Source: Phorcus lineatus (taxonomy: Eukaryota > Mollusca > Gastropoda > Trochida > Trochidae). From it: a stretch of 64,000 nt of DNA. The stretch spans positions 29,983,645 through 30,047,644 of the forward strand of contig OV121088.1 in the NCBI GenBank assembly GCA_921293015.1, read 5' to 3'. The notes under the pieces were generated by a model that worked only from the letters and a program-made list of their open reading frames with translations, made no database searches and was not told the DNA's origin. Made by a program: the position numbers and the translations under genes. Positions 28,701-62,800 of this stretch are shown here, one piece after another; the first letter of the stretch is position 1, and the number at the start of each line of letters is the position of its first letter.

Positions 28701-31700
28701 TTGGGTGTTTTTTGTGGAGTTGTTAGTCCCCTCTTCGATGGTGTTGTCGGTCTTGATCCATAAATCATTTCCTCTTGAATTTGTTTTGCTTTGGCTTTTT
28801 GCTGAAAAAGAGAACAAACCATAAATAATGATAATCAATACTGATTTATGTCAAAAATATAATTAGGAGATAAATCAATTCTGTTCTCTTTTGGGGTTGT
28901 ATGTCGTGCATTTTTCACCCCTAAATTTAATTTCAAACCGAGCTTGCAAGGTCAAAGAAAGTTACATTTGGAGGTTGAATTCAACCAACTGAGCCAACAA
29001 GACCATATCACTCCATAATCCAAAACCGTAGAATGATAATCAAAGGTACAGCTTTCCCCTATTCAGCTTTGTTAACCCATTCTTTTACCACAGAGGTTAC
29101 ACAAGCAATTACTTCCCTACTGACCTGTATTTTAATTGGAGCACTTTCTTGGCTAGAAATAGAAGATCCTTTTGAAAGCAAAAAGAAATATGGTCCACTT
29201 GTTACAGAGGTTATGAGACAATATACGTTTTGAGAATGGTTGGTACCACAAAGAAAAAGAAAATCCACCCTTATAAAATGAAAACAATTCAAAAGTAGCT
29301 TCATACCCTCTGTTCCTTCTCGCGTATCTTCTGCTCGTTGTATGCCTCCCTCTGTTTGACGATGTAGTTCTCATACTTGACCCCGTCCACAAGGAAGTCT
29401 TGTTTGTGTGTTTTCTCCCACTGCTTGACCGCATCTTTGACGTCCTCCTCCACCTGAAACACATAGCACGTTGGTCAATATATTCAATATAGTGAGTGAG
29501 TGAGTTGTTGTTCAACGCCGCTTGGGCAATATATCAGCCATTAGCGGCAATAATATTCAGTACATAGGAAGGGACTAAAAATAGACTTTTAATAAAAGAT
29601 GGATTTTTTAAATATAAAAGTTGATTTAATGGCTACAATATGGATATGAGGGATTTCAGGTTCACTCATATGAAGATTGATAGTATTAATGCAATCCCTT
29701 CTCATATAAAAATCCATTCATAGAACTTTATCGGCTGTACAAGGAGGGAGACCAATGAATGAAAATACACCCAAACAACCAATAACCACACAGATACCTA
29801 ATTATTCAGCAATTCAACATCCACAATAACTTATTTTAGTAACCACTTTTTGTTTCATAATTCCATTCAGGGATTGGGAAAGACAGCCTGGACAATGGGC
29901 CATTTTTAGCGCTTTTAGTCATTTCCAGAATTTTGAAGTAGCAATGGTAAAATTTCTGATTTGAATGGGCCATTTTTTTATCCAATGTGCAAAATGGCCC
30001 ATGGCCCCTGCCTTTCCCAATCCCTGTCCAATTACGCAACAAACCACCCAATGATATTATTTCAAGATCTGAAATGTAAATGCTCACCTTTGGTAATTCC
30101 TTCATTAGTTTCTTGCGTTCTTTCTCTTCTTGAAGGAGACAGTTGTGTCTTCGGTTCTTATATCTGTTTGGGTCGTTAGCCTTTCTCTACAACACAAAAC
30201 ACCAGGAGATGTAATGAATATTCACAAAACTAACTTCGAAGAATAAATTCATTCAACTATGAATTGTCCTCGTAATAAGCTTACCAAAAAACAGACTAAA
30301 CACTCAATTAATTACTCAAGTGACAGCACAATTGTTAATCTTGATGTCATGTAAGTGTTGTGGCAGCAATTGTAAATGATATAACTCAGCTCGTAATAAA
30401 TAAAATACTAAACTCAATCATGTTAAATTACATCTTCATCAAATTTTGTGAATGGTATTGTGTTCCAAATCCCCTTTGCTTGTGATAAAATTGTTATTAC
30501 AAGGGACGTAATTTAATATCCCTTACATCTGTTGAACCATTTTCATATATCATTGGATTCTGTTTTTATGTTTTTAAACTAAATGAAAACAAGGGATGTA
30601 CCTCAAACTCTATCATCTTGAGGAAGAGCTCCTCTCTACGAGCGATCTGGGAGAGCATTTCCTTGTTGGCGTTGTAGTAGGCCTTGACACGTTCAAGCTC
30701 CTGCTCATGTAGATCCAGCAAAGCTTCTGTGTAGTGCTCTGGTAGAAGGTATTTACATTTAACATTGTATAAAAGGTAAATATAAACTTGTCCTTAGTAT
30801 TTCAGCTTCAAAACAAACTGTGGTAGGGGTAGCCACAAAGTATGTTAACTTTAAAATGATTCTTACAACTAGAGTGTAAAAAAGATGCCTCTTCCCCTCC
30901 AGGCATTTCTCAAAGTTGTTTTAGAATGATGCTCCCCAAACAAATCCTTTATTCAAACGACTACAGCCAAGTTAATGATAAGTAAACATCAACAAAAACT
31001 GAAGAAAGGTCAAAGCCCAAACAGGCCATCTACATGTTGGGAAGATCCTGGATACCAAATTTGGTGATGATTGGTCAAATAGTTTCAGATTAATGCTCCG
31101 AAAAAGAACACTACCCTTGAAAGAGACAAAGTTTAAATCATTGCCATGGAAACAGAAAAAATAAAATTGACAAGCTGTTCAAACCCCAAAATGCACATCT
31201 ACATGTTATGTAGAGGCTGTTATGATAATCATAAGATGTACATCTATGTTTTGATCCTCAATACATTTAAACCTTGATCTCCCATGTTCTCTCAAATATT
31301 GGGAATGGCATGAGATCTGTGATTTACTGTTTAGCGCTGTTTTAGCAATATTTCAACCTTTAGCATGTGGAGATCTTTGAGATTGTGTTTTCAACAGCAA
31401 AGAAAGTAAACTGATCATCTCAATACTGAGATGCACTTTTTGTTCCTGTATCGCAACTCACCATCAGTAAGGTGTTCAAACTCATCCCTCTGTTTTTTGC
31501 TGTAGAAACACTGGTCCCACCAATGTATCAACTCTCGTCGGATTCCTTCCACAAACCTCTGAATGTTCTGAAACTTAAGCTTCTCACAGCGTGTGATTTC
31601 CTCTCGTAGAGCACTTATTACTGCCGGTTTAAAACTGTCCTTGTCCTTCTTAAAATCATCACGTTCACTGTGCTCAAGCTCAAGTCGATCCCATAATGAA

Positions 31701-33661
31701 TGCACTTGATACCATAAATCTAGGGTAGTTTGTTTCATTTCGTCTTTCTTTTGTTCAAGCTGAAAATATGATATCAAAGTTGAATAGTCTATGTCTACAT
31801 GGAATAGATTGGACAATTTTTTTTACTGAAAAGCTTTAACTGCATTGAGCTTTCCATGCCCTGTTGGGGACAGAAAATCTACTCAGGGATAAAACCCAAA
31901 ATAGCTGAAATATCCATTCCGGGGCATATATCTTTTTTTTTTAAATTTTATTTTAAATTTGTTCCCCAATTCAGTACAATAATTTGTATGATGTTACACA
32001 ACACTTAATAAATATACAACAAGTTCTTATGGCAATATGAATTGAGATAGATTGATATATCTTGTATAACAGGATCATAAACAGTCAATGCTACTGACCT
32101 CTTGATGAAGTGACTTCAGGGACCTCATGTTCTGTGTGGAGAGCTGGAAGGAGTCGTCATCTTCACACATGATGTCTCGCTCGAACGATGAGTCGGGACT
32201 ACGATCCATTTCGTTAAACAGATCTATGATATCTTTCTTCAGGTGGACAAACTCTTGATGTCTTGTTTCCTGCATTGAGAGAACAGTACACATGTCAGCA
32301 ATATTCTAAGTTGTCCAAGAGCAGATAAAATGCCATATCTAAGTTAAAATGATGTCTACAATAGGGCTTTTGTTTGCATCCTTTTTGTAGTCAGTGAGGA
32401 TGTCTTCAGCCACCAAACTAAGCCTTCACACATAATTCTTAGAATATCTAGGTATAGGAATACATCAACAACAACACCAACAGTGACAATGTATTGTCAT
32501 TCGCAGATACAAAGCTTTTTGAAAAAATCATGTTTTTAGGAGAAGATGCAGGTGAAATTTTGGGCTGTTTCCTTTAAAATTTTCACAATTTGAATACTCT
32601 AACCATCTTAATCATCCTACCCTATAACTTGTACAAATTTGGTACATTAGCATCTGATTTGATCAATGCAAAAGGTCCTATCTAATAAGAACTGGTCAAT
32701 AGAACCAACTCAGTTGATAACATAGGAACAACACAAACAGGGGCTAGTAAGGTTAATGTGACAGACATAATCAAGGACACTAAGCGAATCTAACATATGT
32801 CAGTCTATCTGTTCATCTAACCTTCTCGGCGGTGAGAGTGAAGATGTGTTTCTCCAGCTCCTTCAGCTGCTCCTTGGTGGGGACGGTGCCGGACGCGATG
32901 TAGTATGGGGTAGAGCAGAGCACTTCACATAGGTGCTGGTCCTGGTCCTTCAGTGTCTTCAGGTTCTTCATCCGCGTCTTCTTCTCTAACTGCAGCGACT
33001 CAAGCTTCGCTCTCAGCTCCTTTTCCTTCTGTAGCATCGTCAGTGATTCCTTCGGCTGTAGGAGTAACAATAGGAGGACGTAAGTGTCATTGCAGTGAGA
33101 AACTTGTAACAGTATGGTTAGTTAGCTGGTCATTTTAGTGTGCTCTGATTACCTTTACACAATATGGCCCAAAACTTATAAATGACACAATACCTTTAAG
33201 TTCCCATTATCTCTGAAATTACATCCAAAATGGGCAAATATTCTGTACAAGCCATCAACTAACATCAAAGAAAGTTGACTTTTTTTACTCTGACAAGATG
33301 ACAAAAATCAGATGTTTTTCCATAAAAATCCCCCAACTTAATTGTTCCTACCCATTAAGGATTAAACCAAAAGCAACAAAGATCAAATAGTCTACATACC
33401 TTGAATGGAGACACCACCAATTCTCCCGAGATCTGGATCATCTCCTCGGTGTAGCTGAGGATGTTCTGCTGGATCTGTGTCCGCAGGGATGACTCCTCCT
33501 CAACCATCTCCTCCAGGAGGTTACACAGATGGTGTGAGACGGTGCCCGCCCGTTCCGACATCTGAGACTCACATATTCCGATCTCATTCCAAATGTGGTA
33601 AAGTTTGTTGAGGGCTGCGTCAAGTCGTCCTGTCACCTCAGACTTGATCTTATCTTTGCTA
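25774..33661 (-). CDS. PRC1: Protein regulator of cytokinesis 1 (PRC1/Ase1/MAP65 family)
   Basis: PRC1 crosslinks antiparallel microtubules at the central spindle. Minus-strand exons, all GT-AG: 33661-33400, 33055-32822, 32269-32099, 31759-31462, 30738-30602, 30186-30088, 29453-29307, 28801-28688, 27581-27483, 26846-26745, 25821-25774 (TAG). Phases agree throughout. Diagnostic segments: [15 protein letters not shown] (N-terminal dimerisation coiled coil); [12 protein letters not shown] and [14 protein letters not shown] (rod); [55 protein letters not shown] and [12 protein letters not shown] (spectrin-fold microtubule-binding domain); [20 protein letters not shown] (CDK-site and nuclear-signal region). 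The assembled protein is about 570 residues against about 620 in human. The tail is short and variable, with alternative last exons downstream. The first coding exon is uncertain; vertebrate PRC1 also starts with a tiny exon ending in phase 2, as required here. The CAGGG MITE lies in the first intron. Expression in M phase is expected from the family but not shown by the sequence. Confidence 0.93.
26452..26480. repeat. Microsatellite (AATC)n
   Basis: About seven uninterrupted AATC units lie within the intron between the PRC1 exons at 25821 and 26745. Confidence 0.9.
29491..29552. mobile_element. SINE-like fragment (GTGAGTGAGTTG...CGCCGCTTGGGCAATAT)
   Basis: AGTGAGTGAGTGAGTTGTTG is followed by TTCAACGCCGCTTGGGCAAT and AGCCATTAGCGGC. 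Related copies occur at 20154-20190 and 22845-22895. I associate such modules with abundant mollusc repeats; this is recollection and was not searched. It lies in the PRC1 intron just upstream of the exon 29453-29307. Confidence 0.6.
29868..30026. mobile_element. CAGGGATTGGG MITE, copy 2 (both ends intact)
   Basis: Perfect terminal inverted repeats: CAGGGATTGGGAAAG at the left and CTTTCCCAATCCCTG at the right. The body is inverted relative to copy 1 and contains GGCCCATGGCCCCTGCC. It sits in the PRC1 intron upstream of exon 29453-29307. CAGGG ends suggest a hAT-type non-autonomous element, but an 8-bp target duplication is not clean here. Confidence 0.85.
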
Positions 33662-33767
33662 CTATAATCAGAAAAGAAAAAATGTATAATCATTAGAATT
33701 CTGATGGTATATCATAATAATAAGAATCGTTAATCATGATACTTATATGACGGCATTATATGTATTG

Positions 33768-40031: not shown

Positions 40032-43000
40032 CTAATACCGATGCGAGTAAGGAAAATACGTTCTATGCGAAGAATGATTGGAGGACGAGTTGTACGGTTG
40101 TCGGCGCTGATTGGCTCGTTGGTCGAGACTGCGGAACGTCCGGTCAAACCGGAACTCAAGTTCGTCCTCGTGTGGAATGTCGTGCTCCACACCGGAAGTG
40201 TGGAAAGACGAAGCGGAAGTGTAGGGGAAGTGAGACGTCCGACTGGAGTAAACAGGACCTGACAGTTTGGACCGTGCCGCTGAGAGAACATCTTGGGCGG
40301 CTTTTACTGCGTCCGTGGTGTCCGGGCTTGCCTTCAAACTCTCGCGAGAATCAGAGAAACCTAGAAATAAATATTTTATATTCTAATAAATAAGCGTAGA
40401 AGTAGTAATCTGTAACGACAGTTCTGAGGACACAAAGAAGGCTTTACAAACAGAAAGCAAGCTAGTGACCTAAATATATATACGTGATTCTACAAGGATA
40501 CCCACCGGAGTCGGAGTTCCTGGACGCCAAGGCAGCGGACGGAGCAGATGGAGAAGTGGACGCCCTGGCCTGGTATTTCTGCAGCTCTTCCTCCTGCATC
40601 TCCGCGATATACTTCACAGAGTCCAGCTCCGACCTCAACTTATGGCAAAGGCTCAGAGCTCCCTTCGCGATGTAGCTCTGCGGCACAAGATCGGAGTCGA
40701 ACGCCTTCTGGAGCGTTGTTTCAGACATCAGAGAGAAGTTCAGCAGCTTCAAGAGTTCCTTTTGTTGGTCCGGGCTCATCTTATCTTTCTCTGGATTACA
40801 GATACAGGAAATTAAACCATCAATAGTGTAGGCAGGAGCGAATCGGCACATACCGTATTTTCTCTAATACAACCCCGGGGTTCTGTTTCCCCAAGTACCC
40901 TCTTACCGACCCAACCACTGACGTAAAGCATAAGTCAATTACATATCACGATGAAAGCTAATGAAACTGTTACAAATGAACAACAAGATCTTTATCTTCA
41001 TTTCAAATAAGTAACCCCGAATACTATCGCCTTCGCTTAAAACAAACCAAAATATGTCGAATAATCATTTGTTCTATATGCAATACAAAGAAGATTATGT
41101 GAACATGTGATTATAAAAATATTAACTCTTATTTAATTACACTCACGACAAATACTCCACAACATATTTAATTGGGCTGTTTTTAGTGTTTTGTTAATTA
41201 AAAAAAAAGAAAGAAATTAGATCTCTCTTGTTGAAAGCTTATCTACATAGAATCCTTAGCAGAATCCAGTTAAACAATAAACAACGCTCGCAATAACCCT
41301 TATTCTGACGCCAAATACTAACTGTTATCAGAAACTGTCCTCGCTACTAGAACATGTCAGCGGACGTGAAACCACTTTACTGCACTGAAACACGTACATT
41401 CTTAAAGGGGCAGGGGCACGCCTTTTTTGGAAATTACATTTCCTTAGAGTCTCTCTAATAAATCGATGTTTACGTCAAATGCATTCTTTTCAGAGAAACA
41501 AAGCTCATCACTAATCAGGCCGAACAAAGTATCAAGTACCAACACCTTTTAATCATTTTAGGTCGATGGATACACGTTACGTTCGTTCTAAAACTGCTTC
41601 TGTTGAAGAAAATATTGACTTGAAATTGGTAATGTTTAATTTCGTTTTAGTGAGTTCACATTGTTTACCTCAAAAATCGCGACTGTCCCTTCAATGGAAT
41701 CCAGGGATCCAACGAAAAGGAGAAAATAAGGAACTAATTGAAAGATAATCTTGAGACAATTTGCCGTGTCAATTTTCCGAGTGTATTATTTTCATTTCAA
41801 CAAGAGCGAATTCTTTTACACGAATTTTTTTATTCACTTTGTGACATCACTTTAAATGGATGTTTCTTGTTTATAAAAATGCTTCATTTTCATAAAATAT
41901 GTTTCATTATTCTTTATTTGACATCACTTTAGCATGTATATTTCTTGATAACAACAATTACATCATTTGGATAATTAATTCCCTTGATTGACAGTGACAC
42001 CTTTAAATAGCATGTCTATTCTTGATAATAACATGTGCAATGTTTTGATACAATAACTCTAATGCTTCACTGTATGACAGCACGTCAAACGCTAAACTAG
42101 TCATATCAAACTACGGATAATACACGCGACAGGTACCATGTACGGCGTATGGGCACGACCTTATCATTCTACCAACATATCGTAATTCCTCTGATACGCG
42201 CAAGAGCACCTCTAAACCCCCGGCACTCTTTAGAGACCCGACGCATCGCTTATTGAAGTTCTTGCATTAAATTCTCTAAACCCGGTTTTTTTTTACTCAA
42301 CTACCGTTTTCCGCAGGGGTCAAGGGCAGTTGAGAAATAAAGTGTAAAGAATTAAATGCAATATCTCCAATAAGACCCGGGTGCAAGGGGTGCTGAAAAA
42401 ATATGCGCCTGAGCGCGTTTCAGAGGATTTACGGTACCCTGGACACCCCTCCCCCTTTAAAAGAGGCCGGCGCTTATTTAATATAATATGTAAATATCTG
42501 CCATCGTAGGCTTCTCAAATATACATTCTTGGCACTTAACCATAGCCCCTTGTCGTGATCAGATATGTTATATTGCCTGTAAGACAAATTTTTATTTGTA
42601 TTAGGGTATTTCATGACGGACAACAATGCTTGACTAATTTGCCTTGTTTTGTAATCCCTATTGGTTAGTTGTAGGGTATCGTCGATGAAGTATAATGTCA
42701 TAACTGACTAGTGTTGACAACGTCGTTCTTTGGTAACTTTATTACTTCAATATAGTTTCAAAAAATTTTCAGTGTCATTTTGAAATATTCTAGAAAATAA
42801 GCAGTTATAGGGAATTTGATTTTTTTAATGTTGATTTCTAAAACTACATTACATTTTTACATTAAAATATTTACTGTGGAGTTTCAATTCATTTTATTGG
42901 TTATTCATAGTGAAATTTGACTTTTATACAATTATAGAAATGTCTAAAATTTCGTCCTTAAATGGTTCATAAACATGTAGGCTCCATCATTGATAAAACG

Positions 43001-46000
43001 ATAAAAAAAAAAAAAAACAATGACGGAAATATATCATGTTGAATGGCTAATAAGACAACATATTTTCTATCAGTATCCTGAATAAAATATATCGATTACA
43101 AAATCTCTTTTTAAGTTTTAGCGTGTGTTTGCGCATATTTTTCACTATTCAATTGTATGTATTGAAATATTTATACAAAATGAATTATGATGACTTATTC
43201 CAATCAAAATATTGATTAGGTGCTTTTGCTAAAAGTATCGGTATATAAGAAATACTCACTGAGTGAATAAAACTTTATGAATGAAGTCATTTAATCAAGA
43301 AGTTCTGACTGTTGTTGAAAAACATCAACCCATATTGTTGAAAAACATCAACCCATGTTGTTGAAAAACAATATAAAGCTAGTCGAGATGCTGATTTAAT
43401 TTAATCAAACCATTTAATTAAACCTTTTTTCGGAAATTTATCTATTGCAGGTGGATGATATAAGGTCAGTTCATAGTGTTAATGTTTTTTTGTGTTATTT
43501 CATAAAAAGAAACTTCTTACTGTCAAAGGATTTGAATTGTTGGAATAAATATGTTTAGAATAAATATCATCATAATTGGTGTGTTGACACGCAGAATTGC
43601 CAAATAAAATATCATGAAAATCGACGAGTGTCTTTTTAACCCTCATTCCCCCCTATCCGTTGTTTCGAGCGTAACAGGGTCCAGTCAGTCATTCCATAAT
43701 TCGTTATGTCGTTGTTTAGTTTCATAAGAACCAAATCCATACTTTCAAATACCTGATATGTACAGTGACAGACTTAATAATGTTTCCATTCTAATATATG
43801 TCAAATTGTACATAAAACAACTTCATATTATTATACCGCTATGCTTAGATTACTGATTGCAGTGAAAATTGGATCATCTACGTGTACCGCTACACATATG
43901 ATATATGCATGCATTTGACGGTTTTCAGTACCTGATTTAATGTCAGTTAATCTGGATACATCAATGCATGTCACACTTCAGTTGCACTGCCTCATGACTG
44001 TGTATAAAATAATTGCATTCAATACAGTCTAGCTTCCCATTCAGCAAGTCTAGATTAAACTGAATTCCCAGATGAAATAGAAAGCGAATGACAATAACAT
44101 GGATAAAAGACATTACCTATTTTCTAAGGTCATAGAATAAATGTAAATATATTGATTTTAGATACATGTTGATAGATGTATAGATGATAATAATACCTAC
44201 ATGTCCCCGAACAAAATGCAAGGGGACAATAATCTATGCTGTTAAAGGGACAGTATCAAGTAAAAATAAAAAATATGGGAAGCCATTTAAGTGTGAACAC
44301 CTTTTAATCATTTGCGTTAAGGAAATGGATTAGCATAGCTTAACAAAACATGGTACGTTCATTTGGAAAAAAACACTGCCTTGCAATTTGTAACATTTAT
44401 TTTTTGTTTCTGTGAGATCACTTCTTTACCTAAAACGTGAAACTGTCCCTTTAAGAGCGCAAAATCAGTTATGTCAGACGACAAAACAATTGTTCGTAGC
44501 CAGTAACAGAAGGACACATTCAATCTTATTGAATTAAGATCTAAAGTGCTGCCCTACGTGTAATATGCGTACAGTAGAGCCAAAATTTAGATCTTATTGC
44601 TTTGAGATTGACAGACATAAATCTCTTGTCTCGCAAACACTATAGAGAATGTACACTGCAGTTTAAGTACTAATAGCCAAAGGTCATATATGAATTTGGT
44701 CATGTGGTCAATTGGTATTAGAGAGCTCAGAAACTAATACCTTATTTCAATGAGATTGACAGACATTAAGCGATGGTCACGCAAACACTATAGATAATGT
44801 ATGTACACTGTATATTAGGTCACGCAAACACTAAAGAGAATGTACACTGTAGATTAAGGACTAAGGTCATAGATCAATTTTGTCATGTCACAATTGGTAT
44901 TAGAGAGCTCAGCCATAATGTATCAGAAAACCATCGGAATCCTTACAGTACCGAGTCAGGCCAGATGGAAATATGAAACGTTTGCTAAGCATTCATTGAA
45001 CAAAAGTAACCACTATTTTACTGAACCTAACACTGCATACAACTTAAAAAGTGTGGACAAACACCAATATGTCAGAATTGGTGCCATAGTCATTTACCCT
45101 GACAAATGTTTTCCAGTTCCTATGGAAGCTTACTACATTTTCATAAAATACACGCAGACAACAAAACTTAATAGTTTGATGAACGAATGGAAGAAGAACA
45201 TTGTTGACACAGAGCACATAATTTGCTATATGCCCCGAGGGCATATATCATTCAGAAGCTGTGTCCATTTGCGTTACACGCTAATGCTTTTGAATCGCTA
45301 CATAATGTCATGAACAACAATGGCAAATGCGTGGTGAGAACCCGTTGTCCTTAAAACATTACTGCGGAAAAAATAAATACTTCTTTGAAAGACATTTAGA
45401 GGTAAGGTTAGAAGAATAAGAATCCATTTCTTTGGATCAACAACGTCTTTATCATAAAAGAGTAGCAATCACTAACTTATTAACGGTTGGTATTTACCAT
45501 TACTAAAAACCACTACTTTCTTCATTAGTATTCGTACTTGTCCTACACAAGTGTAACTTAACGATCACGATGCCATAAATAACACATTGTTGAACAAAAA
45601 CACGTTGCAACGCTTTTACAATTTTAGAACATTAGAGTAAATGAACACATTTCTTTTTTTCAGCATTTCATAATACCCTCTATAATAATTCCTGAGTACT
45701 TACTAAAGAGATAATAATAAGAAATGCACGGGTACATTGAGCACTGAAAATGGCCTTGTTTGTAGGCATTTAAGTAATTAGCCTAAAAAACGCGACCGTT
45801 AAATATATAATTTATATATCTAATCTAAAACAAAACATTATGAAATCATTATTTTGATGAGCATTTTAAGATAAAGCTTTACGACAGTGCTACATGAGAA
45901 ACTGAAATTGTTTTTTGGAGATGTACTGCAGGGGTGACGTTTCCCTCAACTGCTTTCTCTCCTTTATACAAATGAAATATAAATACATGTCTGACAAGAT

Positions 46001-47859
46001 CCCTTTTAATTTCAATCCACAAGGCAAATTTACAACAACGTATGCACGTAAAGTATAGCTGCAGTTAATAAACGAGGGTTTATTTGTGCTTTGCACACGG
46101 GGGTGTCGGTAGGTTCACTTATTGATTTCGCTGTGTTATAATGTACTGCATTGTCCAATAAGTTTGTAGTACCTTGTACTCTACTGAAATGTATGGGCAA
46201 ACTTATTTGCGTATTCATTAACTGGAGGTGTATCACTTCATCTCACGTCTAAAAACGTCACATTTCACAACGAACACAAGCACTATGAACTTGCACACAT
46301 CGTTTCTTTGATACTTAAGGATATTTGTTTTCCGATGAAGAAAACTTAGTAATGCCCCATCGAAAATATCATTATAATGTCTTTGACCTGAAGTTCCATA
46401 ATATCAAAATATCAACTAGATTTACAAACCGACATATTTTTTATGCTTTAAGGTTTGTGTTTTAAATGAAGCAAACGGTAAAAATTCAATATTGTGCTTT
46501 ACACTACTATATTTGACAATATGATTGAAACGTTTTTTATTCTATAAAAGTATAAAGTATTTGTGAAAATATTTGTGATTGCATACTCACAATCGTGATC
46601 TATGGACAGTATTTTGAATGTACAGTTTTATGACAACTGAATCTCTCTGAATGTGTTACCAAAGAAAATGGAAGTTTTAAAAATGGCAACCCACCTGTCT
46701 TAAGGATGTACTCGAGAACTTCATACAGCGTATCATGATTTACTCTACTACCGGAAGGAGCAGCAGCTGCAAGGAGTTTGAAAGTCTCAGCCGTCAGGAC
46801 TCCTTTCTTCGCCATTTCCGACATGTACGTGTCCACGAGCTTGCAAGCCTTCTGGGCGTTGTCCGAGTCCCCATTGGTTGATTCTATAACAATGTCATGA
46901 AGGACGGAAGGGGAGATAATACATAAATCTTCCGGAGAGAGTTTGTTGAGCATCTCCCCCGCTATCTTGACTAGAAGTTTGCGGCATGTACAACCCCTCG
47001 CTGTAGCAATTCTCAGAACCTTGGTAATCCACTCTGTAGTGACGTCAGCGACGGTATAAGCTTCCTCTGGTAAAACAACCAGAACTGAATCCAACACTTT
47101 GGCAACATCCACTTTCTTTTCTTGAGATTTTTGTTCATCATCCTTTTGCGATGAACGAGCTTTAGAGTCGGTCTTTCCATCATCGCCTTCGTCCTTCTCT
47201 ATAGCCGCGGTGACATATTTAATCACCATTTCTCCCAATTCTGACGTATTTATTCCCTTCTCCTTTGCTTGTTTCAAGATTTTGACGAACCATTCCACTG
47301 GAAGTGTGTACAAATTCAGGACCGGTTTCTCCCCTTTATCGTCAGGAGATTTCCTTGATGTCGGGCTACTGAATCTCGTGGGTGGTTTCAACCAGCACTC
47401 GACTAAAGCATCTGTGCATTGGTCAACTATCCCCGATCTCTCGGAAAGTGTTCCTATCTTGGCACAGTATAAAAGAAGGGAGATAATACCAGAGCTTGAT
47501 CTACTCATCTTGGCAGACGTGATAGTATCCTGAAGAAACTTTTCCGAAGTTTCAATTAAGTTTCCCGCTCCTTCCATTTGTAAGTATTCCGCCGCGCAGC
47601 GAACTTGCACGATATTGTTTTTAGTGAGGTCAAAGTTCATGCTATAACAGAAATCTGCTACCAAGCCGAATATCTCGTGTCCACCCGGGAAGTTTGCCAA
47701 GTCAACTTTCTGGGAGTCAGCCATCTTGCCCCTTGTCAGATTACAAAAATAATTTGATTTCGCAAATAGGGGAAATTTATGTAGCTTAAAGGTCTTCCCA
47801 TCGACGACGACTGACAGATCTGAGAGATCACCGCTCTCTCGAAACTTGGAAAAATTCAT
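40032..47859 (-). CDS. BTB-NPH3-like protein (NRL-family architecture) in an animal gene
   Basis: Three minus-strand exons join in phase: 47859-46695, 40790-40506, 40360-40032 (TAG). Together they give 592 codons; the intron between the first two is 5.9 kb. Residues 1-110 are a BTB domain of plant NPH3 type: LHKFPLFAKSNYF, NFPGGHEIFGLVADFCYSM, then VRCAAEYLQM and LIETSEKFL. Residues 185-430 follow the NPH3 domain order: VEWFVKILKQAKEKGI, VLDSVLVVLPEEA, CRKLLVKIAGEMLNKLSPED then LCIISPS, LVDTYMSEMAKKGVLTAETF then KLLAAAAPS, NHDTLYEVLEYILKT (compare the plant LYRAIDIYLK motif) and KELLKLLNFSLMSETTLQKA. A charged linker (221-250) splits the domain, as in plants. Residues 438-462 look coiled coil, and the tail is Ser/Arg/Tyr-rich. 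Plant NRL proteins are CUL3 adaptors acting at the plasma membrane in phototropin and auxin signalling; that role cannot be transferred. The BTB fold suggests a CUL3 or dimerisation function (inference). The start is favoured by AAAATGA context and immediate BTB homology. Confidence 0.85.
41402..41694. mobile_element. TTAAAGGGRCAG MITE, copy in BTB-NPH3 intron
   Basis: It starts TTAAAGGGGCAGGGGCACG and ends CGCGACTGTCCCTTCAA, a worn inverted repeat; the terminal TTAA has mutated to TCAA. The body shares CACCTTTTAATCATTT with the copy at 44242. Confidence 0.65.
43312..43369. repeat. 22-bp direct repeat, 2.6 copies
   Basis: TGTTGAAAAACATCAACCCA is repeated in tandem with an AT/TA spacer inside the BTB-NPH3 intron. 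It is the only notable local repeat in this otherwise plain AT-rich stretch. Confidence 0.9.
44242..44454. mobile_element. TTAAAGGGACAG MITE, best-preserved copy (213 bp)
   Basis: It starts TTAAAGGGACAGTATCAAG and ends CGTGAAACTGTCCCTTTAA, with TTAA at both boundaries. The internal text ATTTGCGTTAAGGAAATGGA and TGCCTTGCAATTTGTAACAT recurs in diverged form in the copy at 57818. Confidence 0.85.
44600..44930. repeat. Local tandem duplication in the BTB-NPH3 intron
   Basis: The phrases GCAAACACTATAGA, GAATGTACACTG, AAGGTCATA, and CAATTGGTATTAGAGAGCTC followed by AG appear twice, about 180-240 bp apart. TTGAGATTGACAGACAT also repeats (44603 and 44752). A 142-codon ORF starting at 44885 begins inside the second copy and is not supported as a gene. 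Confidence 0.7.
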
Positions 47860-50882: not shown

Positions 50883-53800
50883 ATGGGTCTGTTTGTCACC
50901 ATACCTTTCTACTTCCTATTCACAAGTGGAATCGAAAGCGTGAGCTATGAATTTGACGACAGTTCCGGAATGGGGAGGAGATTCGATGGAATCGGTGGCA
51001 TTAGTGGCGGAGGGGTAATGTGAATTTTAAAAAAAATAAAAATTTTGTGTATAAAATTTGAAAAAAATCATGTAATAAAAAGTTTCTTTTAACTCTTAAC
51101 ATATACGATTCCTTAGAAAATTACTAAAAAATCTGAATCAACGATTGATGTGCTGGTATAGTATATACCAATTACTTACAGGAATGTTTACTCAATTCCG
51201 AAATCAAAATTTTAATTTTCTAATACTTTCATATTTCAATATTTGAGGTTATGGAACACGTGCATATTGCTACTCATGTACTTCAAACGACTTGACTGAA
51301 ACCATTGCTTTCAATTGTTCTTTAGGGCCCTTAAAAAGTGGCAGGTAGGTTCGTTGAAACCCGTAAATCACCCACGTCGGACAATTTGAAATGACCTTCT
51401 CTTTACAAATTTTATCCTTAAAAAGTTGTGCTTCAAAGGTATAGATTGATTATGACAGAACTATCTAACTCTTTAGGTGTTACATTTTACACATTTCTTC
51501 TCTCTATAACTATTTTTCTCGCGTCTAGCACTTTGTCCTTCAAATCCAAAGAAATTCTATCATAATATATGTATAGCTTAGGAAGATAAAGAAGTTGCAA
51601 TGGGACCGTCTGTATTTTATGAAAGATGAGAAGTCTCACTTTTTCCACCAAAAAAAAAATCATTTCACTACCAACTTCCAGTGCAAAGCATAAGTCACGT
51701 CAGTCATCATCATAGAATAAGTTACGCCTTGCTGCATTGTGCAAACATTCGTGGTTTTCTCTTATTCTGATTGCACGGCGAAGCTCAGGTGCAGTAGGCG
51801 GAAGAGTTGAATCTTAAAAGATGGCAATATTCAATATTATATTAAATAATGCACAACATTAGCCAGTAATTGAGACTGCGGCAAATTATGCTTCGCTGGG
51901 AAAGATTTATCACCATACATCTTTGTATATATAGTCGACTGCATACAAAATGAGTAATGTTTGCTATCTTACAGGCCACATCCAAACTGCTTGTGAACTA
52001 TCCAGAGAAGTACAGGAATCAGATCCTTGACTTTCTCTTCAAGGTTTGTAGTTCAACGCTTTTTGTGGACAAATTTCCTTTGGTTGGTTCTGAACAATCA
52101 TCGAGGCTTCAGTTATGGGCTAATCCTTTTTTTATCCATAGATATTGCAAAGAATTTGCCTGATAATAATCAGCTTTTAATCTTGGCCCTTATTATGATA
52201 TGCCCTTTTCGAATCAAAATGGCTGTCGCAGATATTTTATGAATGCTTCACACAGTATGCACGCCAATCCGCACTTAGGTCGCGCCAGGTTTTTTAAGTA
52301 GACAAGCGGCAATATACATTTTAGAGATATCAATAGAATGAATGAAATAAGAAAGGAACTCTGAGATCTTATCATTTTCAGATGTCATTTTGCATTACTT
52401 GCTTAGATGTAATGTACGTTTTTTAACCTTAAATTGAGAAAAATGGCCCTGGGGATCGACCAAGTTATGATGACAACCACTTTTGTAACATTGCTAAAAG
52501 TGACCAAATGTTTATAAATTTTAACTTAAAGGGGCTGTTGGTGAGTCACATTTGCGAGACTTTATCATATTGTCATTTTGCCATGAGGTACTGACTGTTT
52601 CTGAAAAAGTGTCAATCACTAGATAATCGTTACAGTGACATAGTGAAAGCTTTGATCGAAAACCGGACAATATACCACTGCTGGCGTGCGCAAATTATTC
52701 AATGTAATTTTAGGAACTTATATAATGCAGACAGACAAACAGATTGGAGTTTATAGTTTTGAATAGGTTCTATTACTTGTATTGATGAATATTTGATGTG
52801 ATTTCGGCTTCTGCACATGTATAGGCATGGTCCAATTCCTTTTAAAAGATTCAATGTTCATAAATTTGTAATACTTTTTTTCAAGATGAATATATAAACC
52901 TTTTAAAATCCTCATCAACATATATGGTCTGTTGGCACTTTCAAGCCAGATAAAATGTCTCAAAGTATCTCTTTACGTTATCTTGAATTTTTTAAACGTT
53001 TGCTAATGTATGCTTGATCACATTAACATATTAAGCATGATCTTAAATTTATTGCGATCTATCAGCCGGAGTTTGGTGCCAGTCTGCAGATTCTGAAGGT
53101 GGAGATAGGGGGAGACGCCCAGAGTACCGGTAAGAGTTCACTAAGAAGATATTACTGATGTGGCTTTACAGAGGATAAAACAAGACAACGAAGTAAAGCT
53201 ATGATTTATAAAACAAAACACCTAGTACAAAGTTGTGGGCTCGTTTCCACATTTTCACGTTTCACGTAACGTTATTCCTTATTATATTGATGAAGTAATT
53301 GTTTACGACTACAATTTCAACAAAATTTAAATTTAGCCCTGAATATAATAAAAGGTAAACGTCTTGGTGTTTTTTTGTTTACGGGAAATCAAAATACCCA
53401 AATGTAGACACAATCGTTGACAGTTGTTTGAATTGGTTTAAATGGATTACACATACGACTCTTATTTTAGATGGAGAGAGCTTGCGAACGGAATATATTT
53501 ACATATTTATCAGTTCACCAATTAAACTTAGTTCTTAAATTGTGAGACTTCGACTGACATCGTTTCTGAGACTCAATTGACGCGGATGAAAATATCTACA
53601 TGTTCTTTGGACTTTTGATAATCATAAAATCCTTTTTCTTATCCAAAATGAATACCTCTGGTTCATATGTTATGCTAAAACCTCTCCAGATGGCACAGAG
53701 GCGTCCCACATGCACTACCCCTGGGACGAGAACTACAACAGAGGCTACGAGTGGTGGCTTATGAAGGAGGCCAAGAAGGTGAGTTCCTTTCGTTGTTATA

Positions 53801-56800
53801 TACTGTTGAGGGTGATGCCGGGATTTAGAAATCCCGTGTTACTTTATTCAGCATATGTTGGTGCTAGTAAATGGTGGCTAATGAAGGAGGCCAAAAGATG
53901 AGTTGCTTTCGTTGTTATACACTGTTGAGGGTGATGCCGGGATTTAGAAATCCCGTGTTACTTTATTCAGCATATGTTGGTGCTAATAAATGGTGGCTAA
54001 TGTAGGAGGCCAAAAGATGAGTTGCTTTCGTTGTTATACACTGTTGAGGGTGATGCCGGGATTTAGAAATCCCGTGTTACTTTATTCACATATGTTGCTA
54101 ATAAATGGTGGCTAATGAAGGAGGCCAAAAGGTGAGTTCCTTTCGTTGGGATATGATATTCTCAAAAGTTAGACATCTGGATTTAAAAGTCCCCTGAGAC
54201 TTTATTCGTTCGACATTGATGTTCTTTGTTTTGTAGGCTAATGATTGAGTAAAAACAGCGGATGGTTGCCAATGTAATAATGAGTCTTGCGAAACTCTAT
54301 TACTTAGTGTCAATGCGAATAAATGCCAATATATGTCCACGATGATATCCGGACTAATAACACTTGGTACGTACGGTTGTCCATTAAAGAAGACTTTAAA
54401 GAGATGATATGAACTACAATATGGAGAACCTTACCTTCTTGCGATATTTTGACAAACACATACGTCTTTCCATGCGCTGATAGGCAAGTTACAAATATGT
54501 AAGTATAGGGTAAAATGTTGTGGATGAAAGCATAGAAATCCCCTTGTTGCTGTCTTTTTTTTCAAATAACAAAACCAGCCCTAATTTTTTTTCATTTCAA
54601 TTATTCTATTCAGAGAAACCCCAACATAAAGCTGTATGGACTTCCATGGGGGTTCCCCGGCTGGTTGGCAGGACAACCGAATGACCCGTATGTTAACCGA
54701 CAGAACCTGGCCACGTACATCATGAAGTGGATCCAGGGAGCGAAGAGTCACCACAACCTTACCATAGATCTCATAGGGGTGAAGATTTTTAGATTTTTAA
54801 TTTAAAAAAAAAAGAATTTATTATTTTATTAGATGAGGTATAAGCATAGCTTTACTTATGATATTAAACGTTATAGAAATATATAAATTTATGTACATTA
54901 TTTGTTTACTCTTTCTGCTATTGATATTGCATAAAAGATTATCCATACGGATACAATTAATTTTGTCTTTCGCACTATCTTAAGACAACTAATTCTTAAA
55001 ATGCCTATCACATCATAAATGTACTGCAATGCATAATGTTATAAATTTGTTTGAATATTGAGGGCTATAAGGTAGATTGGATTGAAATTCTATCTAAAGT
55101 ACTTTTAAGATATCAGTGCTATGATTTAGATGATTTTGATTTACGATAAGAATTTATTTAACCATTATTTACGCAACTATTAAATATTCTCAATATTCCA
55201 TCGCATGATACCTGACCCGAAGATACATTATATTGATTAGCCTTATTTCCTTATTTTAAATTATAAGATATTTTGGGGGGTATTTGGTTGTAAAAATAAT
55301 TATTTCTTGTCAGTAAAAATATCTCCTTTCTGATAGATATGGAACGAACATGACTACGATGTGGAATATATCAAGGTAAACTGCTTTTGTTTTTATGTTA
55401 TTGTTAACTTATTTGAAACTAGTTTATAACCGAAACATGCATCCACATAAACCCCTCGGCAAAAGAAACTGTTTAAAATATCTTTGAAATGACATAATAG
55501 AAACTCAACAATATTGATGTTGATAGTAAGCATTGCTGTCAAAGTGCCTGAATTACCTTAGTTTTATGATTATGTTTTATATTTACTCATTTCTAAAAAT
55601 TAATGTCAGAATATATTCACTTGACTTGACGTGACAAACAGTTAAAATAACTGCTCTAAGTCGATGGTGGCTATCACCACTATAGTAAAAACACCTACCA
55701 ATAACCAAAAACATATAACAAAATCAAACGAAACACTTGTGGTCTCTGAAAATTTACAAAGACTGTCCATGGATACCTAAGAAACGACATAGTTCCGGCA
55801 TTTCCACTGACAACGTTTTTTACAATATAGATTTATAGATTGTTGTAGGAATATTGGACAAGCCTGAAATATGTTTTTTTTATTTTAAGGTTGATATTGT
55901 CGATGAAGATAAATCAGGGATTAAATACATAGGAAAATATATACATTTCAGTTAAAACCGAACAACTCCCTTAAAATTGTTAAGAAGCGAAATCATTTAC
56001 ATTAGCTTTATAACCTTTCAAACACTTTTCACTCAAAATCTTTAGTCTGCTTTATTTAGTTTCCAATGCAACGTTTATGCAACTTAATCTGTGCCATTTA
56101 ATCCCACTTTATATCACGCTTCCACTACTGAAACCGATGTTGGATGTTATCGGCTTTCAACAGCTCCAGATAAATTTCGATCTCATTTTTTTTTTAAAAT
56201 GAAAATTTAAAAGTTTGGCATTTTAAGGATTAAGAAGTTATGTTAAGAAAGGCGATTTTAACTTGAATCAGGACGGATGGCATTTGACTATCAGTTAAAC
56301 CACATGCAAAATTTATTAAACATACTCTGTGTCACTTTAATCCCACTTTATTTCACACTTCATCTCCTTGGACAAGTGTTGGATAGTAACGGCTTTTTAA
56401 GGATTAAGATGTTATTTTCAGAAAGGCTATTTTTACTTCACTCAGGACATAGGTTATTTGCCACATACAAAATGTATGCAATATACGACGCGTCACTTTA
56501 ATAACACTTTATTTTATACTTCAGCTACTGAGACAGATGTTGGATAGTAACGGCTTCCAACACGTCCAGATAGTGGCTGCCGATGGAGACTTCAAGATAG
56601 CGGAAGATGTTCTCAAAGACAGAGATCTGGCTGATGCTTTAGTGGCCATTGGGTACTGTCATTAAAGGGTCAGCTCTACCGCGGCATTTTTCGACGATAT
56701 GATATTCGAGGATATTCTACTTAAGTTGCTTATGCTTTTATTTTTTCAGTTACGTTATCAGCATTTTCAAAAGATTTCTTTAAACCATTTAATTATAAAA

Positions 56801-59800
56801 GCATACATGAGACTGAACAAAAGACTAAGATAGAGTCTATCTAATAAGATTTATTTCTTGGTCTTGCAGTTTCATATTGAGAACTGCTAACTTGTTGCAT
56901 GATGACCTCGACCTTAATATGATTCCATTTTTTACAAAGTCATTGAGGAGGTCATAAAAAGACATTATCCCTCGATTTTCATCTTAAAGAATACCTAGGG
57001 CGTTCTGTGGATAAATCTATTACACATGTAAAATGTTGTCAAATTTGATAAAATATATGAAACATTAACTTACCTAGAAAAATGATGAAAGATGCAACAT
57101 TTCCTCAAACGAGGTGTTCTTTAGAGGTTACAAGGGTAGAATGTAGAATGTAGAATGTAACTGTCCGGAATTGTCTTATACAGTTACACCCTTACTTTGT
57201 TTAGTTGAGATATGGTTATCTTCCTAAAATCGAGTCTAGTTTCTTATGATTTGTTTCTTTTCAAATACTAAAATTTGATTAAAATTAACCCTCCTCGTAT
57301 TTTAAGATATCAAGACTAAGATATATGGATCCCTCGAAACAGAGTTGATTGGGACCAGAATGCTCATTATTTGGGGGAAAAACTTATTTGTTCATGCATA
57401 AAATGAATACTAGTAGTTAAGAAAAAGAACCTAAATGTCGGTCTTGGCTATTTTATTCAGTAATTTATGTTTCTATTCTCCAAGAGTACACTACCCGGGC
57501 ACGCAGTCTACACCAACAGCAATTCAAACAGGGAAAACGCTCTGGGCTTCCGAAGACTACAACGCTCCCAACGACGATGTCGGTGGTGGATGTTGGGCCA
57601 GGGTGCGTTTAATAACTAAATCATTTCAATTTTCTTCAATTCAAGTGAATGATTGATAAAAGAATTTAATCGTTAACATTTTAGTGATACGAAATAGTTT
57701 ACTTTAGTCTATTTTTAGATAGTTAACTAGAAATCAATAATGATTTCGACCCTAGACCTATGTTCTTTATCTCAATAGTTTCTTAAAGTTTATCTCATGT
57801 TGCTATTGTTTGGGATTTTAAAGGGGCAGTAGCACGTTTGATGAAAACTTTATTTCTTAAAATTTTCCCAAGTAAACACTTGTTTATGCCAAATGTGTTC
57901 TCTTCAGACTGGCATCCGTAGTCGTAGAAGGAATAATCAAGCATATAGCATACAGCAAAAACCACTTGAGGCCATTTTTGTGTGAACTCGTTTAAACCAT
58001 TTGATGTAGGGAAATGAATAATTAAGTGAAAATGGCATGTACGATCTCGAACTCTTTTTTTTGGATTAAGAAACATTGTCTTGCAATTGGTTAAATTTAT
58101 TTTGCTTTCATGAGATCATTTTATTTATCTTAAACGGTTGTACTGTCCCTTTAAACCAAGACCAAGAATTTGAAATATTTACTTCTCGATGTTTTGACGC
58201 TGCATCTTGTCTCTGAATTACAGATACTAAACCAAAATTATGTGAATGGAAAAATGACAAGGTAACATTCATTATATAATGAAATTTATGAAATTAAAAG
58301 TTGATATTCAGTGAATATCTTACCAAAAAATACAACTTGTTATAACACGTCAGTCAGAACATTATATGAACATACAATAACAGCTGCGCCGTCAATGAAC
58401 ATAAAATAAACTTTAATTGATAATAAAACACTCATCCTATGTTAATCGAAAAACCAAATTTGCAATGACATCATCGCATTAGGAATCTTAGTGCAGTGAG
58501 GTAGTGCAGTGTACATTTTGAATGGAAACGTGATGAAAATGAATATTTGATACTGAATAGAATTTCACCTTCGTGTCTTCTGATCTCCAATGCATTCACA
58601 CTCGTCGGTACGCGGTAAAAGTAAAATTATCGTTGACAAGCCTCGGATATTTGGAACTTTTAACAACTCCTGTTGATATATTTTATATCAGAAGACACAA
58701 AGATGAGATTATTTATATTTCATATTACTTCAGCACTATAGCATGGAACCTGATAACGAGTTACTACGACCACATCTACTACGACCGGTCTGGTCTGATG
58801 ACCGCCATACAGCCTTGGAGCGGCAACTACATGGTTCAGAGTCCTATCTGGGTGTCAGGTTGGATATGAATACACTATTGAATGAATATTTCCATAACAT
58901 TGATACAGAATATCTGCACCGATTCCCTCTGAATTTCATAAGTTTAGATGTACATGTAATACATAACTATCAGATAAATATCCTAATGTTCTAAGTTCTC
59001 TTATTAAAACCTTAACAACCGTAAGCAAATGCCCTCAAATTGATGTATGTTGATGTCAGTTTCTATAGTTAGCAATATATTTTTGATCTTGAAAAACTAG
59101 CGCCTGCGTAGTTGTAGAACTATGTTTAATTTGAAGACATTTTGGTATTCATAGAATTACCTTTCTCTATAAAAATGTGAATTACTTTGTGATACTTGTT
59201 CTTTAACTACAAAGTTATTACTTTCTCTTCATCTGATATACAATTTAAACCTTTGAAAAGCTTTTCGATGATAATAAAATAACTGATAATATACAAGATG
59301 TAGTTTTTTTCAACGATCCAAATAGCAAACATTTCACTGAATATTTTCTCTCATTTTACAATTTTATAAACGCATCACCAACATTTGCAAACGTTCTAAA
59401 GGAAAGGATCAAATTACAAAAAAATACACCTTTGCAGCTCATACGACCCAATTCACGGACATAGGCTGGACGTATTTGAAACACGGTCAGGGTGTAGGCC
59501 ATCTTGAATCTGGAGGGAGTTACGTAGGACTGGTCAGTCCAGACAAGAATGACCTTACCATTGTTGTTGAAACTATAGTAGGTATAAGTTTATAACATAC
59601 ACTGGTTATATATTTTCTAGTTATCCTCATTTAAATTGAATGTAAAATTAAGTAAATATAGTTGATAACCAAATACTAGTATACAAAAGGTTATAATAAT
59701 TTATATGAGTTTTTCTTTTGAATTTTTAAAAAACTGACCACTAAGAGAACGGTTGCATCGATTAACAATTCTATATTTACACGTGTTTCAGGAGTTTCAA

Positions 59801-62800
59801 AAAAACATAATTGGCATTCTTTACTGGTTTTAATCAAGTATAAATTGGTAAATTCGGTAAAGCATATGTTTCTAGGATGTTTTATATACGTTTCTAAGAT
59901 TGGGATAACAAGTTATCTTCAAGTCATTATCCTCTGTTCATCCTCACGACCTTTTATGATATATTCTGTCAATATGATTTCCCAAGGGTTGTTCACTTTT
60001 AAGTTTTCAAATTCACATCTTAATTCGTTAAAACTTGCTCTAGAGTAATTGAAAAAAAAAGTTTTTACGAATATCCTACTCGATTGGTAACGTTGGCGAC
60101 CTCAATAGCCATATAAAGGTTTTGAGAAGGTTATGATGCAGGTAATACGGTACATGTAATAAGTTTTGTTGGCAAAATACGATACAAGTAATAAGTTTTG
60201 TTAGCAAAATACGATACATGTAATAAGTTTTGTTAGCAAAATACGATACATGTAATAAGTTTTGTTAGCAAAATACGATACATGTAATAAGTTTTGTTAG
60301 CAAAATACGATACATGTAATAAGTTTTGTTAGCAAAATACGATGCAAGTAATAAGTTTTGTTAGCAAAATACGATGCAAGTAATAAGTTTTGTTAGCAAA
60401 ATACGATGCATGTAATAAGTTTTGTAAGCAAAATACCATACATGTAATAAGTTTTGTTTGCAAAATACGATACATGTAATAAGTTTTGTTAGCAAAATAC
60501 GATACATGTAATAATTTTTGTCAGCAAAATACGATACATGTAATAAGTTTTGTAAGCAAAATACGATACATATGTAATAAGATTTGTTAGCAAAATATTT
60601 CAAATCTTCAATCATAGTCTTTGTCACTTTCAGGCACACAATCACTCGGTGTGTTTCCGGCCCCCTATAAAGCCATACGATGTACATAAAGCCACAATCA
60701 ATTTGAAATTAAAGGGGAGTTTTGTGAGTAAAACAATATGATATTTTCGTTTCGATATGTATATGTGTAATAAAATGAAAACCTCTTATTGCTTAACTAC
60801 AGGGGAAGGAAGTTTGTTTTGAAAGAGACTATATACACTGTGTAGAAATAGTTTTTGTGATGACTTTCATGTTAGTGTATCATGTGCGTTTTCAGGGACT
60901 AACAGTATAATGTTTATTTGTAATATTCGACATATCAAGAAATCTTATTTATGGCATCAGATGTCCTATTCGTTTCAAAAGGTATCATCTTTTGCTAAAA
61001 GTCATTTTTAACCATGAGGAATTTTGAAACTTTAATAGAGCGCGACTTACTTTGATTTTGTACATTTTTTACCATGAAGCTGAATATTATCGTGATATTT
61101 GATACTAAATGGCAATAGTATTCTTTATTGAAAAAAATTCCAAAATGCAACAAACGAGGAAATGTATTTTGATTATTATTTAGTCTGGTGGTGCTTAACT
61201 TACTGTTGTGTTTCGTATCAAGGAATTAAATTTATTAGATTTTCTTTATAAATCATTCAAGAACAGAGGTATGAATGCAACAAACGATGTAACTTTTTGT
61301 TGTTTATTTTTTAGTCCAAGATCAAAAGGCTTCAGGTGTGGTATACCAAACTGAGTTTCCCACCTTCAGAGGAGTCAGTGCTTTTCAAGAAGTTGGATTC
61401 AGTCAACGTATGTACCCCAAGGGACCGAGAGTCTCTCTCTCTAATATCGGCTTATTTCGCAATCATGCTTTGAAGGAGAATTAGATTAGGGACGGTAAAT
61501 CATAGAAAACATCTATCGCAATGAATTATTTACATCTTTTCAACTTATGTAGAGATACATGCGCTTTATTCAGAATCGCCACAACTCAATTCCCGATATT
61601 TTAGGACGTGATTATAAGTTATTAGTTCAGTGATTTAATAAAAAAAACTTTCGATATCCGCTCGAACCTATCGCTAGTACCTCGTTGCATTTCATTAGTA
61701 CCTCGTTGCATTTCACTAGTACCTCGTTGCATTTCACAAGTACCTCATTGCATTTCACTAATATCTTGTTGCATTTCGCTAGTACCTCGTTGCATTTCAC
61801 TAGTACCTCGTTGCATTTAACTAGTATCTCGTTGCATTTCACTAATATCTCGTTGCATTTCACTAGTACCTCGTTGCATTTCACTAGTACCTCGTTGCAT
61901 TTCACAAGTACCTCATTGCATTTCACTAGTACCTCGTTGCATTTCACTAGTACCTCGTTGCATTTCACTAGTATCTCGTTGCATTTCACTAGTACCTCGT
62001 TGCATTTCACTAGTATCTCCTTGCATTTCACTAATATCTCGTTGCATTTCACTAGTATCTCGTTGCATTTCACTAGTACCTCGTTGCATTTCACTAGTAT
62101 CTCGTTGCATTTCACTAGTACCGCGTTGCATTTCACTAGTACCTCGTTGCATTTCACAAGTAACTCATTGCATTTCCCTAGTACCTCATTGCATCACTGA
62201 TCTGAGTCAAGCTCCAAACGGGTCGTGACAGGTGACCTTTGCTCTCCAGCCAACCAGCAACGAGAAAAGTAAGCCTTTGAGAGCAGCGCTCAGATCAACG
62301 CAACGAGGTGCGAGTGATAGTCTCTCTCATTTCATTAAAATTTAATATAATGAGATGACCCTCTTGATGGCAGTCACGTATTATTCTACGCAGTTTCAGT
62401 AAAACAAACTGGCATTCAGGTTCCTTTGGTTTGTTATTAAAAAAAAGGTTGAAGATGGCACTGTTACCTTGTATCTCGGCGTTGACGAGATCTGGACGTT
62501 AACGACCTTGAGCCGAGGTCAAAAGGGAGAATATCCAACACCGCCACCATCAGAACCGTTTCCTTTACCATACATGGATGATTTTGAAGGTACAATAGAT
62601 ACATTATTTAATGATAAACATTGTAATATGATCTATGTCTAATGAAATATCGAGATGTTTTTGATATGAAAAGTCAGTTAAGGAGTAAGAAAACGGGAAA
62701 AGTAATCAAACCCATTTTAATGTTTGTTTTATGCGTAAATATCTTCGAAAGGAGCTCATCCATTGCGGATATGAAGATGTTCAATGGCCTCGGTGTAAGG

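Follow-up and report, generated by a model that had tools for sequence, protein, structure and literature searches.

A BTB-NPH3 gene in the gastropod Phorcus lineatus belongs to an animal branch of a family described as plant-specific

The genome of the gastropod Phorcus lineatus carries an intact member of the BTB-NPH3 (NRL) family, an identity confirmed here by sequence comparison. The gene lies on the minus strand, at 47859..40032 of a stretch of 64,000 nucleotides (assembly GCA_921293015.1, contig OV121088.1, positions 29,983,645 to 30,047,644 of the forward strand; hereafter the window), where the original prediction had placed a BTB protein of NPH3/NRL type; those coordinates proved exact. 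Its three exons encode a product of 592 residues, and it is part of an animal branch of BTB-NPH3, found in octocorals, a rotifer, nemerteans and molluscs, which is separate from the sampled plants. BTB-NPH3 is thus a real and probably very old animal gene. The best explanation as a whole, to which we give a probability of about 0.6, is an animal BTB-NPH3 branch of vertical descent whose product would be a dimeric BTB adaptor, most likely for CUL3.

That NPH3 proteins, known from the light responses of plants, are usually described as plant-specific, as had been stated, is borne out by three papers. BTB-NPH3 was reported to be absent from the other genomes considered and was regarded as a possible plant-specific adaptation (PMC1257465), NPH3 was dated to the origin of plants (PMC4327156), and the NRL family was called plant-specific (PMC7242014). 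No report of an animal member was found in the open-licence literature, judged mostly from titles, abstracts and passages. In the accessible passages, an alligator paper and a K13 paper name the BTB-NPH3 family with no animal member, a sea urchin paper has PF03000 only in the list of hidden Markov models (HMMs) it searched with, and a diatom paper uses the number PF03000 for a phosphatase domain; most other papers that mention BTB-NPH3 are, by their titles, on plants. Animal BTB-NPH3 genes are already present in public databases, where automatic annotation calls them, for example, "root phototropism protein 2-like" (Gigantopelta), "DOT3-like" (Mya) or "root phototropism protein 2" (Plakobranchus ocellatus). 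New here are the finding of the family in octocorals, a rotifer and nemerteans, its clean division between animals and the sampled plants, the exon end that molluscs have in common, and predicted structures that match closely.

In the Pfam scan the whole NPH3 domain (PF03000, amino acids 183-412) scored 77.4 bits (E 1.9e-21), well over the curated cutoff of 27, and a BTB domain was found ahead of it (Table 1). A better match to a BACK or Kelch family had been named as the outcome that would speak against the assignment; neither BACK nor Kelch matched the window protein in the Pfam scan up to E 10. The plant NPH3-type motifs that had been listed are all present in the 592-residue translation, which contains LHKFPL, FPGG, FCYS, VRCAAEYLQM and LIETSEKFL, as well as LYEVLEYILK, the counterpart of plant LYRAIDIYLK.

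The homology extends through the NPH3 half. Profiles of the post-BTB region were compared pairwise, in runs whose E-values are rough, using the window and 29 of 36 chosen sequences; those in which the BTB-end motif was missing were dropped (molluscs P0007, P0016 and P0020, plants P0069, P0072, P0113 and P0142). The mollusc profile matched that of plants with E 2.5e-18 over 322 columns and a score of 144.7, and it matched nemerteans at E 3.9e-64, octocorals at E 5e-33 and rotifers at E 7e-16 over 146 columns; nemerteans matched plants at E 1.3e-14, and the octocoral-plant score was 48.7. When the plant profile was reversed the scores were 20.2 for molluscs, 17.2 for nemerteans and 18.0 for octocorals, and 20 column-shuffled plant profiles scored 13.8-21.8 against molluscs. 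When 23 animal and 14 streptophyte sequences were aligned, the two groups agreed in their majority residue (at least 60% in each) at 67 positions of the window protein. Of these, 33 lie beyond residue 110, including, near the end of the NPH3 domain, D343, Y345, E348, L355, F360, P368, R372, H375 and D376. It could be argued that an animal BTB-BACK protein converged on NPH3-like motifs, as the N-terminal part of the NPH3 region does model like BACK. The NPH3 match at 1.9e-21 with none to BACK, together with a mollusc-plant profile match spanning 322 columns while the reversed and shuffled controls stay at background, makes convergence very improbable.

The search for other animal members that had been suggested was productive. 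Among the best 120 of 331 matches, which were examined in the first protein search, all 64 proteins from P0001 to P0064 carry precomputed BTB and NPH3 domains. Relatives occur in at least 27 named molluscs, both gastropods and bivalves; 61 proteins, 27 of them from named molluscs, rank above the nemertean ones, which come from Lineus longissimus (38% identity) and Tubulanus polymorphus (35%). Plants begin at P0068 (27% identity over 70% of the query, E 5.6e-29), and the plant matches listed have 24-39% identity in local alignments. A second search with 12 animal sequences gave no new animal sequence among the best 120 of 303 matches. A third, with six divergent sequences, gave 29 matches, including the octocorals Dendronephthya gigantea and Xenia sp., the rotifer Brachionus calyciflorus and the alga Chara braunii. 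Of 95 less similar sequences taken as animal, 30 were scanned; BTB was found in 30/30 and NPH3 at E <= 0.001 in 19/30, several of the NPH3-negative ones being short pieces. NPH3 scores above the cutoff included those of Brachionus (37.0 bits) and one octocoral-type sequence (32.1). No vertebrates, arthropods, nematodes, cephalopods or hexacorals were among the named matches listed, which is a hint only, since these searches are word-based and return best-ranked matches, so that the absence of a group is weak evidence.

Two of the divergent groups have features of their own. The octocoral-type sequences P0145, P0149, P0154 and P0159 share a C-terminal region of the form GQW..N...LNV...FLFDPF.E (YLFDPF in one of them) and end near YWPF; many molluscs end in a YFPYSHRY-like sequence. 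The rotifer-type sequences P0161, P0163, P0165, P0108 and P0169 have a long repeated linker after the BTB domain, with units like NLINIAGDIL and, in P0108, also LTQIASEIR.

The plant-like database names raise the question of a recent transfer from a land plant, or of plant contamination of the assembly. The window protein is 75% identical to its ortholog in the abalone Haliotis asinina (P0001) over its whole length, in 605 aligned columns; the best plant match reaches 27% over 70% of the query. The gene is flanked by PRC1 and GALC, animal neighbors which had been cited against contamination and which are upheld by Pfam families in three open reading frames (ORFs) each and by agreeing best PDB matches. 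A common end of exon 1, just after LExxLxx-G or a close variant, was found in the window ORF and in 24 of 28 ORFs, the 28 having been picked by pattern as sequences that end soon after this segment; the 24 are 23 mollusc-like sequences between P0032 and P0059, plus P0064. Since orthologs occur in 27 named molluscs and 24 ORFs share this exon end, contamination is very unlikely, in agreement with the original prediction; as all 18 land-plant sequences moreover group together with no animal sequence among them (see below), we regard recent transfer and contamination alike as having a negligible probability. Plakobranchus is a chloroplast-stealing slug, and the mollusc genes named "root phototropism protein 2", as in this animal, belong to the animal branch and give no sign of a gene from algae. 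Nothing was found to suggest a prokaryotic or viral source: none of 57 pattern matches in viral contigs and none of 87 in GTDB genomes was confirmed as a relative.

In each of four trees, all unrooted because no outgroup was found, a branch separates the animal sequences from the streptophytes, among which Chara is included in three of the trees. A tree of 47 sequences (540 columns) placed 28 animal sequences, three of which have no assigned animal group, on one side and 18 land plants plus Chara on the other, with support of 100/100; the 18 land plants grouped together at 100/99, and the window gene was not inside any land-plant NRL subfamily. A tree of the NPH3 part only (36 sequences) gave 100/99 for animals and 98/98 for land plants, and both values rose to 100/100 when Chara, P0067, P0162 and two rotifer-type sequences were left out (P0162 was excluded from both NPH3-part trees). 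In a 30-sequence tree the plants grouped at 100/99, and bilaterians joined with sequences of unassigned group only weakly (45/76). The branching order within animals is not settled by the 47- and 30-sequence trees.

It had been proposed that the family either predates the plant-animal split, with wide losses, or was transferred. The deep origin is strengthened by the octocorals, the rotifer and the nemerteans; the choice between the two is beyond the trees, since with no outgroup both vertical descent and a single very old transfer are compatible with them. An animal branch common to cnidarians and bilaterians moves the origin of the family back, or else requires a very early transfer, and presence in both groups with animal monophyly favors an origin before the cnidarian-bilaterian split. 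The likeliest history is vertical inheritance from a time before plants and animals diverged, followed by loss in many animal lineages. We see a somewhat better than even chance that BTB-NPH3 is an ancient eukaryotic adaptor family, older than the plant-animal split, which cnidarians and several phyla of spiralians retained and most of the familiar model animals lost, with phototropism as a later use in plants. Alternatively, a streptophyte alga may have passed the gene to an early animal, or the reverse, in a single horizontal transfer before the cnidarian-bilaterian split, with vertical descent in animals thereafter. The unrooted tree is compatible with this, and no fungi, other opisthokonts or amoebae were among the named matches (120 of 331, 120 of 303 and 29/29). 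Yet absence from such searches is weak evidence, the animal sequences are not nested within the sampled plants, and so early a transfer would be unusual; we consider it unlikely.

Several observations do not fit a simple reading. The NPH3 halves of octocorals and rotifers match plants weakly (probability 78 and 82%, E ~1e-5), the reversed-profile control covering molluscs, nemerteans and octocorals, and Pfam NPH3 falls under its cutoff in Dendronephthya (22.6) and Xenia (23.4). In the 47-sequence tree molluscs are set apart from all other animals, with support of 89/83, which differs from the species tree. Octocorals, rotifers, P0067 and Chara have long branches, the tool having warned of long branches meeting at Chara and at P0067, and with some long branches and no outgroup the trees fall short of showing vertical descent.

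The main elements follow one another in closely matching order in the AlphaFold models of one animal and one plant member, a comparison that had been suggested with the prediction. In the AlphaFold2 model of the Haliotis ortholog residues 436-477 form one continuous helix, with predicted local distance difference test (pLDDT) values of 93-95 in the block and 73 at its end; the part encoded by exon 3 is mostly below 60, with one short helix at 75. The models suggest that the BTB domain leads into a rigid scaffold made up of 3-box/BACK-like helices and additional NPH3 helices, after which come a long helix and a flexible tail that carries a conserved motif at its C-terminus. This tail motif is common to the window protein and other molluscs, less so in some bivalves. 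Both models align with the BTB-BACK part of CUL3-bound KBTBD2, and KBTBD2 and A55 were aligned over 182-234 residues with a root-mean-square deviation (rmsd) of 3.5-4.3, although BTB-only chains reach the same Z. No match to the C-terminal half of the NPH3 region was listed in the fold comparison, which by the tool's own warning barely covered this part. Solved structures that match the window protein by sequence are BTB-domain proteins, matched through the BTB part. A solved NPH3-domain structure was also sought by sequence in the PDB, and none was found: all six matches of plant P0068, and the best 60 of 62 matches of alignment profile A1, lay in or near BTB domains.

From these models the animal protein is expected to form dimers through its BTB domain, offering a helical arm and a flexible tail; most likely it acts as a dimeric adaptor or scaffold of BTB type, perhaps serving CUL3. 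Dimerization would yield a two-armed adaptor whose helical scaffold and tail could bind client or cortical proteins and bring them to a partner. The partner would most likely be CUL3-RBX1, for ubiquitination. Plant members work with phototropin and related AGC kinases; as phototropin is, to our knowledge, not an animal protein, phototropism would be a use to which plants have put an older adaptor. Animal members would offer a setting in which to identify the basic biochemical task of the NPH3 domain, as animals have, as far as we know, neither phototropin nor plant auxin transport.

Recruitment of CUL3 is our first choice of mechanism, at about even odds. According to the available parts of the plant studies, NPH3 is a CUL3 substrate adaptor in which the BTB domain binds CUL3 and the coiled coil binds phot1, and family members bind CUL3 and phototropin or AGC kinases (PMC7242014, PMC8531357). 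The same partial sources describe NPH3 as a 14-3-3-regulated membrane protein (PMC8531446, PMC8531357), and report binding of plant members to membrane lipids, 14-3-3 proteins and AGC kinases (PMC8531446, PMC8531357, PMC8774072). The latter properties, together with a tail that is long, predicted to be flexible and conserved in molluscs, would also suit a scaffold at the membrane or cortex instead of a ubiquitin-ligase adaptor, in the way that plant NPY/MEL members are thought to act in polarity.

Work on CUL3-BTB complexes has identified a phi-x-E contact motif for CUL3. This pattern occurs in 18 of 94 animal sequences with a readable loop (95 given), 13 of the 18 being octocoral-type M-x-D-E loops, and is absent from the other 76, a point in favor of the scaffold; the window protein has M-A-D at this position, and the motif is not conserved in molluscs. 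The fold comparison also counts against the overall explanation, as BTB-only chains have Z values as high as the BTB-BACK ones, Z values of this size can arise in helical models from chance arrangement, and long Foldseek alignments to KBTBD proteins had a low TM-score of 0.20-0.28 by query and an rmsd of 5.7-10.9. In plants the motif occurs in 11 of 74 sequences with a readable loop (77 given), and so it is not decisive. The alignment of both models with CUL3-bound BTB-BACK proteins and the reported binding of plant NPH3 itself to CUL3 through its BTB domain, as far as the accessible text goes, stand against the scaffold, which we hold to be a tentative second choice to a CUL3 adaptor.

Compared with the plant NRL proteins (NPH3, RPT2, NPY/MEL, DOT3 and the At1g67900 type), the animal protein shows the same succession of BTB domain, NPH3 domain and C-terminal helix, and it differs in lying on a separate side of the tree. 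The animal model has one continuous C-terminal helix of 42 residues where the plant model has two separate helices, the extra small helices differ, and the animal protein has an acidic, lysine-rich linker and the mollusc tail motif. Several plant members, though not all, have a C-terminal RxS phosphosite to which 14-3-3 proteins bind. The window protein has no RxS in its last 25 residues; as RxS occurs there in 6/23 animal and 7/14 streptophyte sequences, it does not define the family. From the animal BTB-BACK-Kelch adaptors of CUL3 (KBTBD2, KLHL, KBTBD4) the window protein differs in its missing BACK and Kelch HMM matches and in having no propeller, with further NPH3 helices and the long helix in its place. 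With BTB-zinc finger proteins (BCL6, Miz1, ZBTB8A) it has the BTB domain in common, about 105 residues aligning with an rmsd of about 2, and the match stops at residue about 111-119; we know of no NPH3 domain in that group.

The gene model agrees with the three phase-compatible GT-AG exons and 5.9-kb intron that had been described (Table 1). The ATG at 47859 has in-frame stops upstream. The exon 1 donor is GTGGGTTG and the second donor GTGGGTAT; the end of exon 2 at 40506 was preferred because it has a GT site and the Haliotis protein aligns gap-free across the exon 2/3 junction. An exon 2 end at 40503, giving 593 amino acids with one extra Gly, was discarded for want of a GT donor; the domain, structure and first protein searches partly used that version, and the NPH3 and BTB bit scores are equal for the 592-residue one. 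Judged from where unspliced ORFs end, the position of intron 1 appears to be old and conserved in molluscs and P0064. Full-length relatives on contigs of 2.2-2.8 kb, such as P0018 with 373 member sequences, suggest spliced transcripts in those relatives. The plant ORF P0171 seems to continue beyond the end of an exon at a point that, by eye, lies about 4 bases from where intron 1 begins in the animals (exon 1 end at 46695 in the window); a shared or slid intron is possible, although this single sequence is too little to claim sharing.

Table 1. Features of the BTB-NPH3 gene and its neighbors in the window
Feature	Position	Strand	Description
Exon 1	46695..47859	-	start codon, BTB domain, linkers, most of NPH3 domain; amino acids 1-388 plus one base
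Intron 1	40791..46694	-	5,904 bases, phase 1, GT-AG
Exon 2	40506..40790	-	NPH3 domain end and long C-terminal helix
Intron 2	40361..40505	-	145 bases, phase 1, GT-AG
Exon 3	40032..40360	-	low-confidence, probably disordered tail and TAG stop (ending at 40032)
BTB/POZ domain	47554..47853	-	amino acids 3-102; Pfam PF00651, E 8.7e-15, 55.3 bits
NPH3 domain, exon 1 part	46695..47313	-	amino acids 183-388; Pfam PF03000
NPH3 domain, exon 2 part	40720..40790	-	amino acids 389-412; Pfam range mapped through gene model
Long C-terminal helix, possibly coiled coil	40555..40680	-	amino acids about 426-467; mapped from P0001 residues 436-477
Tail motif	40032..40187	-	EHDI..EDELEF..DR.FRSLD and C-terminal YFPYSHRY; from mollusc alignment and Haliotis pair
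PRC1, flanking gene	31415..33711	-	MAP65/ASE1 family; three exon-containing ORFs tested
GALC, flanking gene	53590..58869	+	glycosyl hydrolase family 59; three exon-containing ORFs tested

In the PRC1 ORFs Pfam MAP65_ASE1 was found at E 1.8e-21, 2.7e-14 and 9.3e-10, and the best PDB match of the ORF at 31415-31822 was 4l3i, Protein regulator of cytokinesis 1 (E 1.6e-17). The GALC ORFs matched Glyco_hydro_59 at E 2.8e-13, 1.9e-16 and 1.7e-12, and the ORF at 54536-54805 had galactocerebrosidase as its best PDB match (E 2e-15). Elsewhere in the window, neighboring ORFs at 18916-19839 (+) hold HTH_28 (E 2.2e-6) and DDE_3 (E 1e-7), transposase pieces which we take to be of Tc1/IS630 type. Two minisatellites lie at 60144-60597 (period 32, 14.1 copies, 94% matches) and at 61674-62194 (period 21, 24.8 copies, 91% matches), and in the latter long ORFs stay open on both strands.

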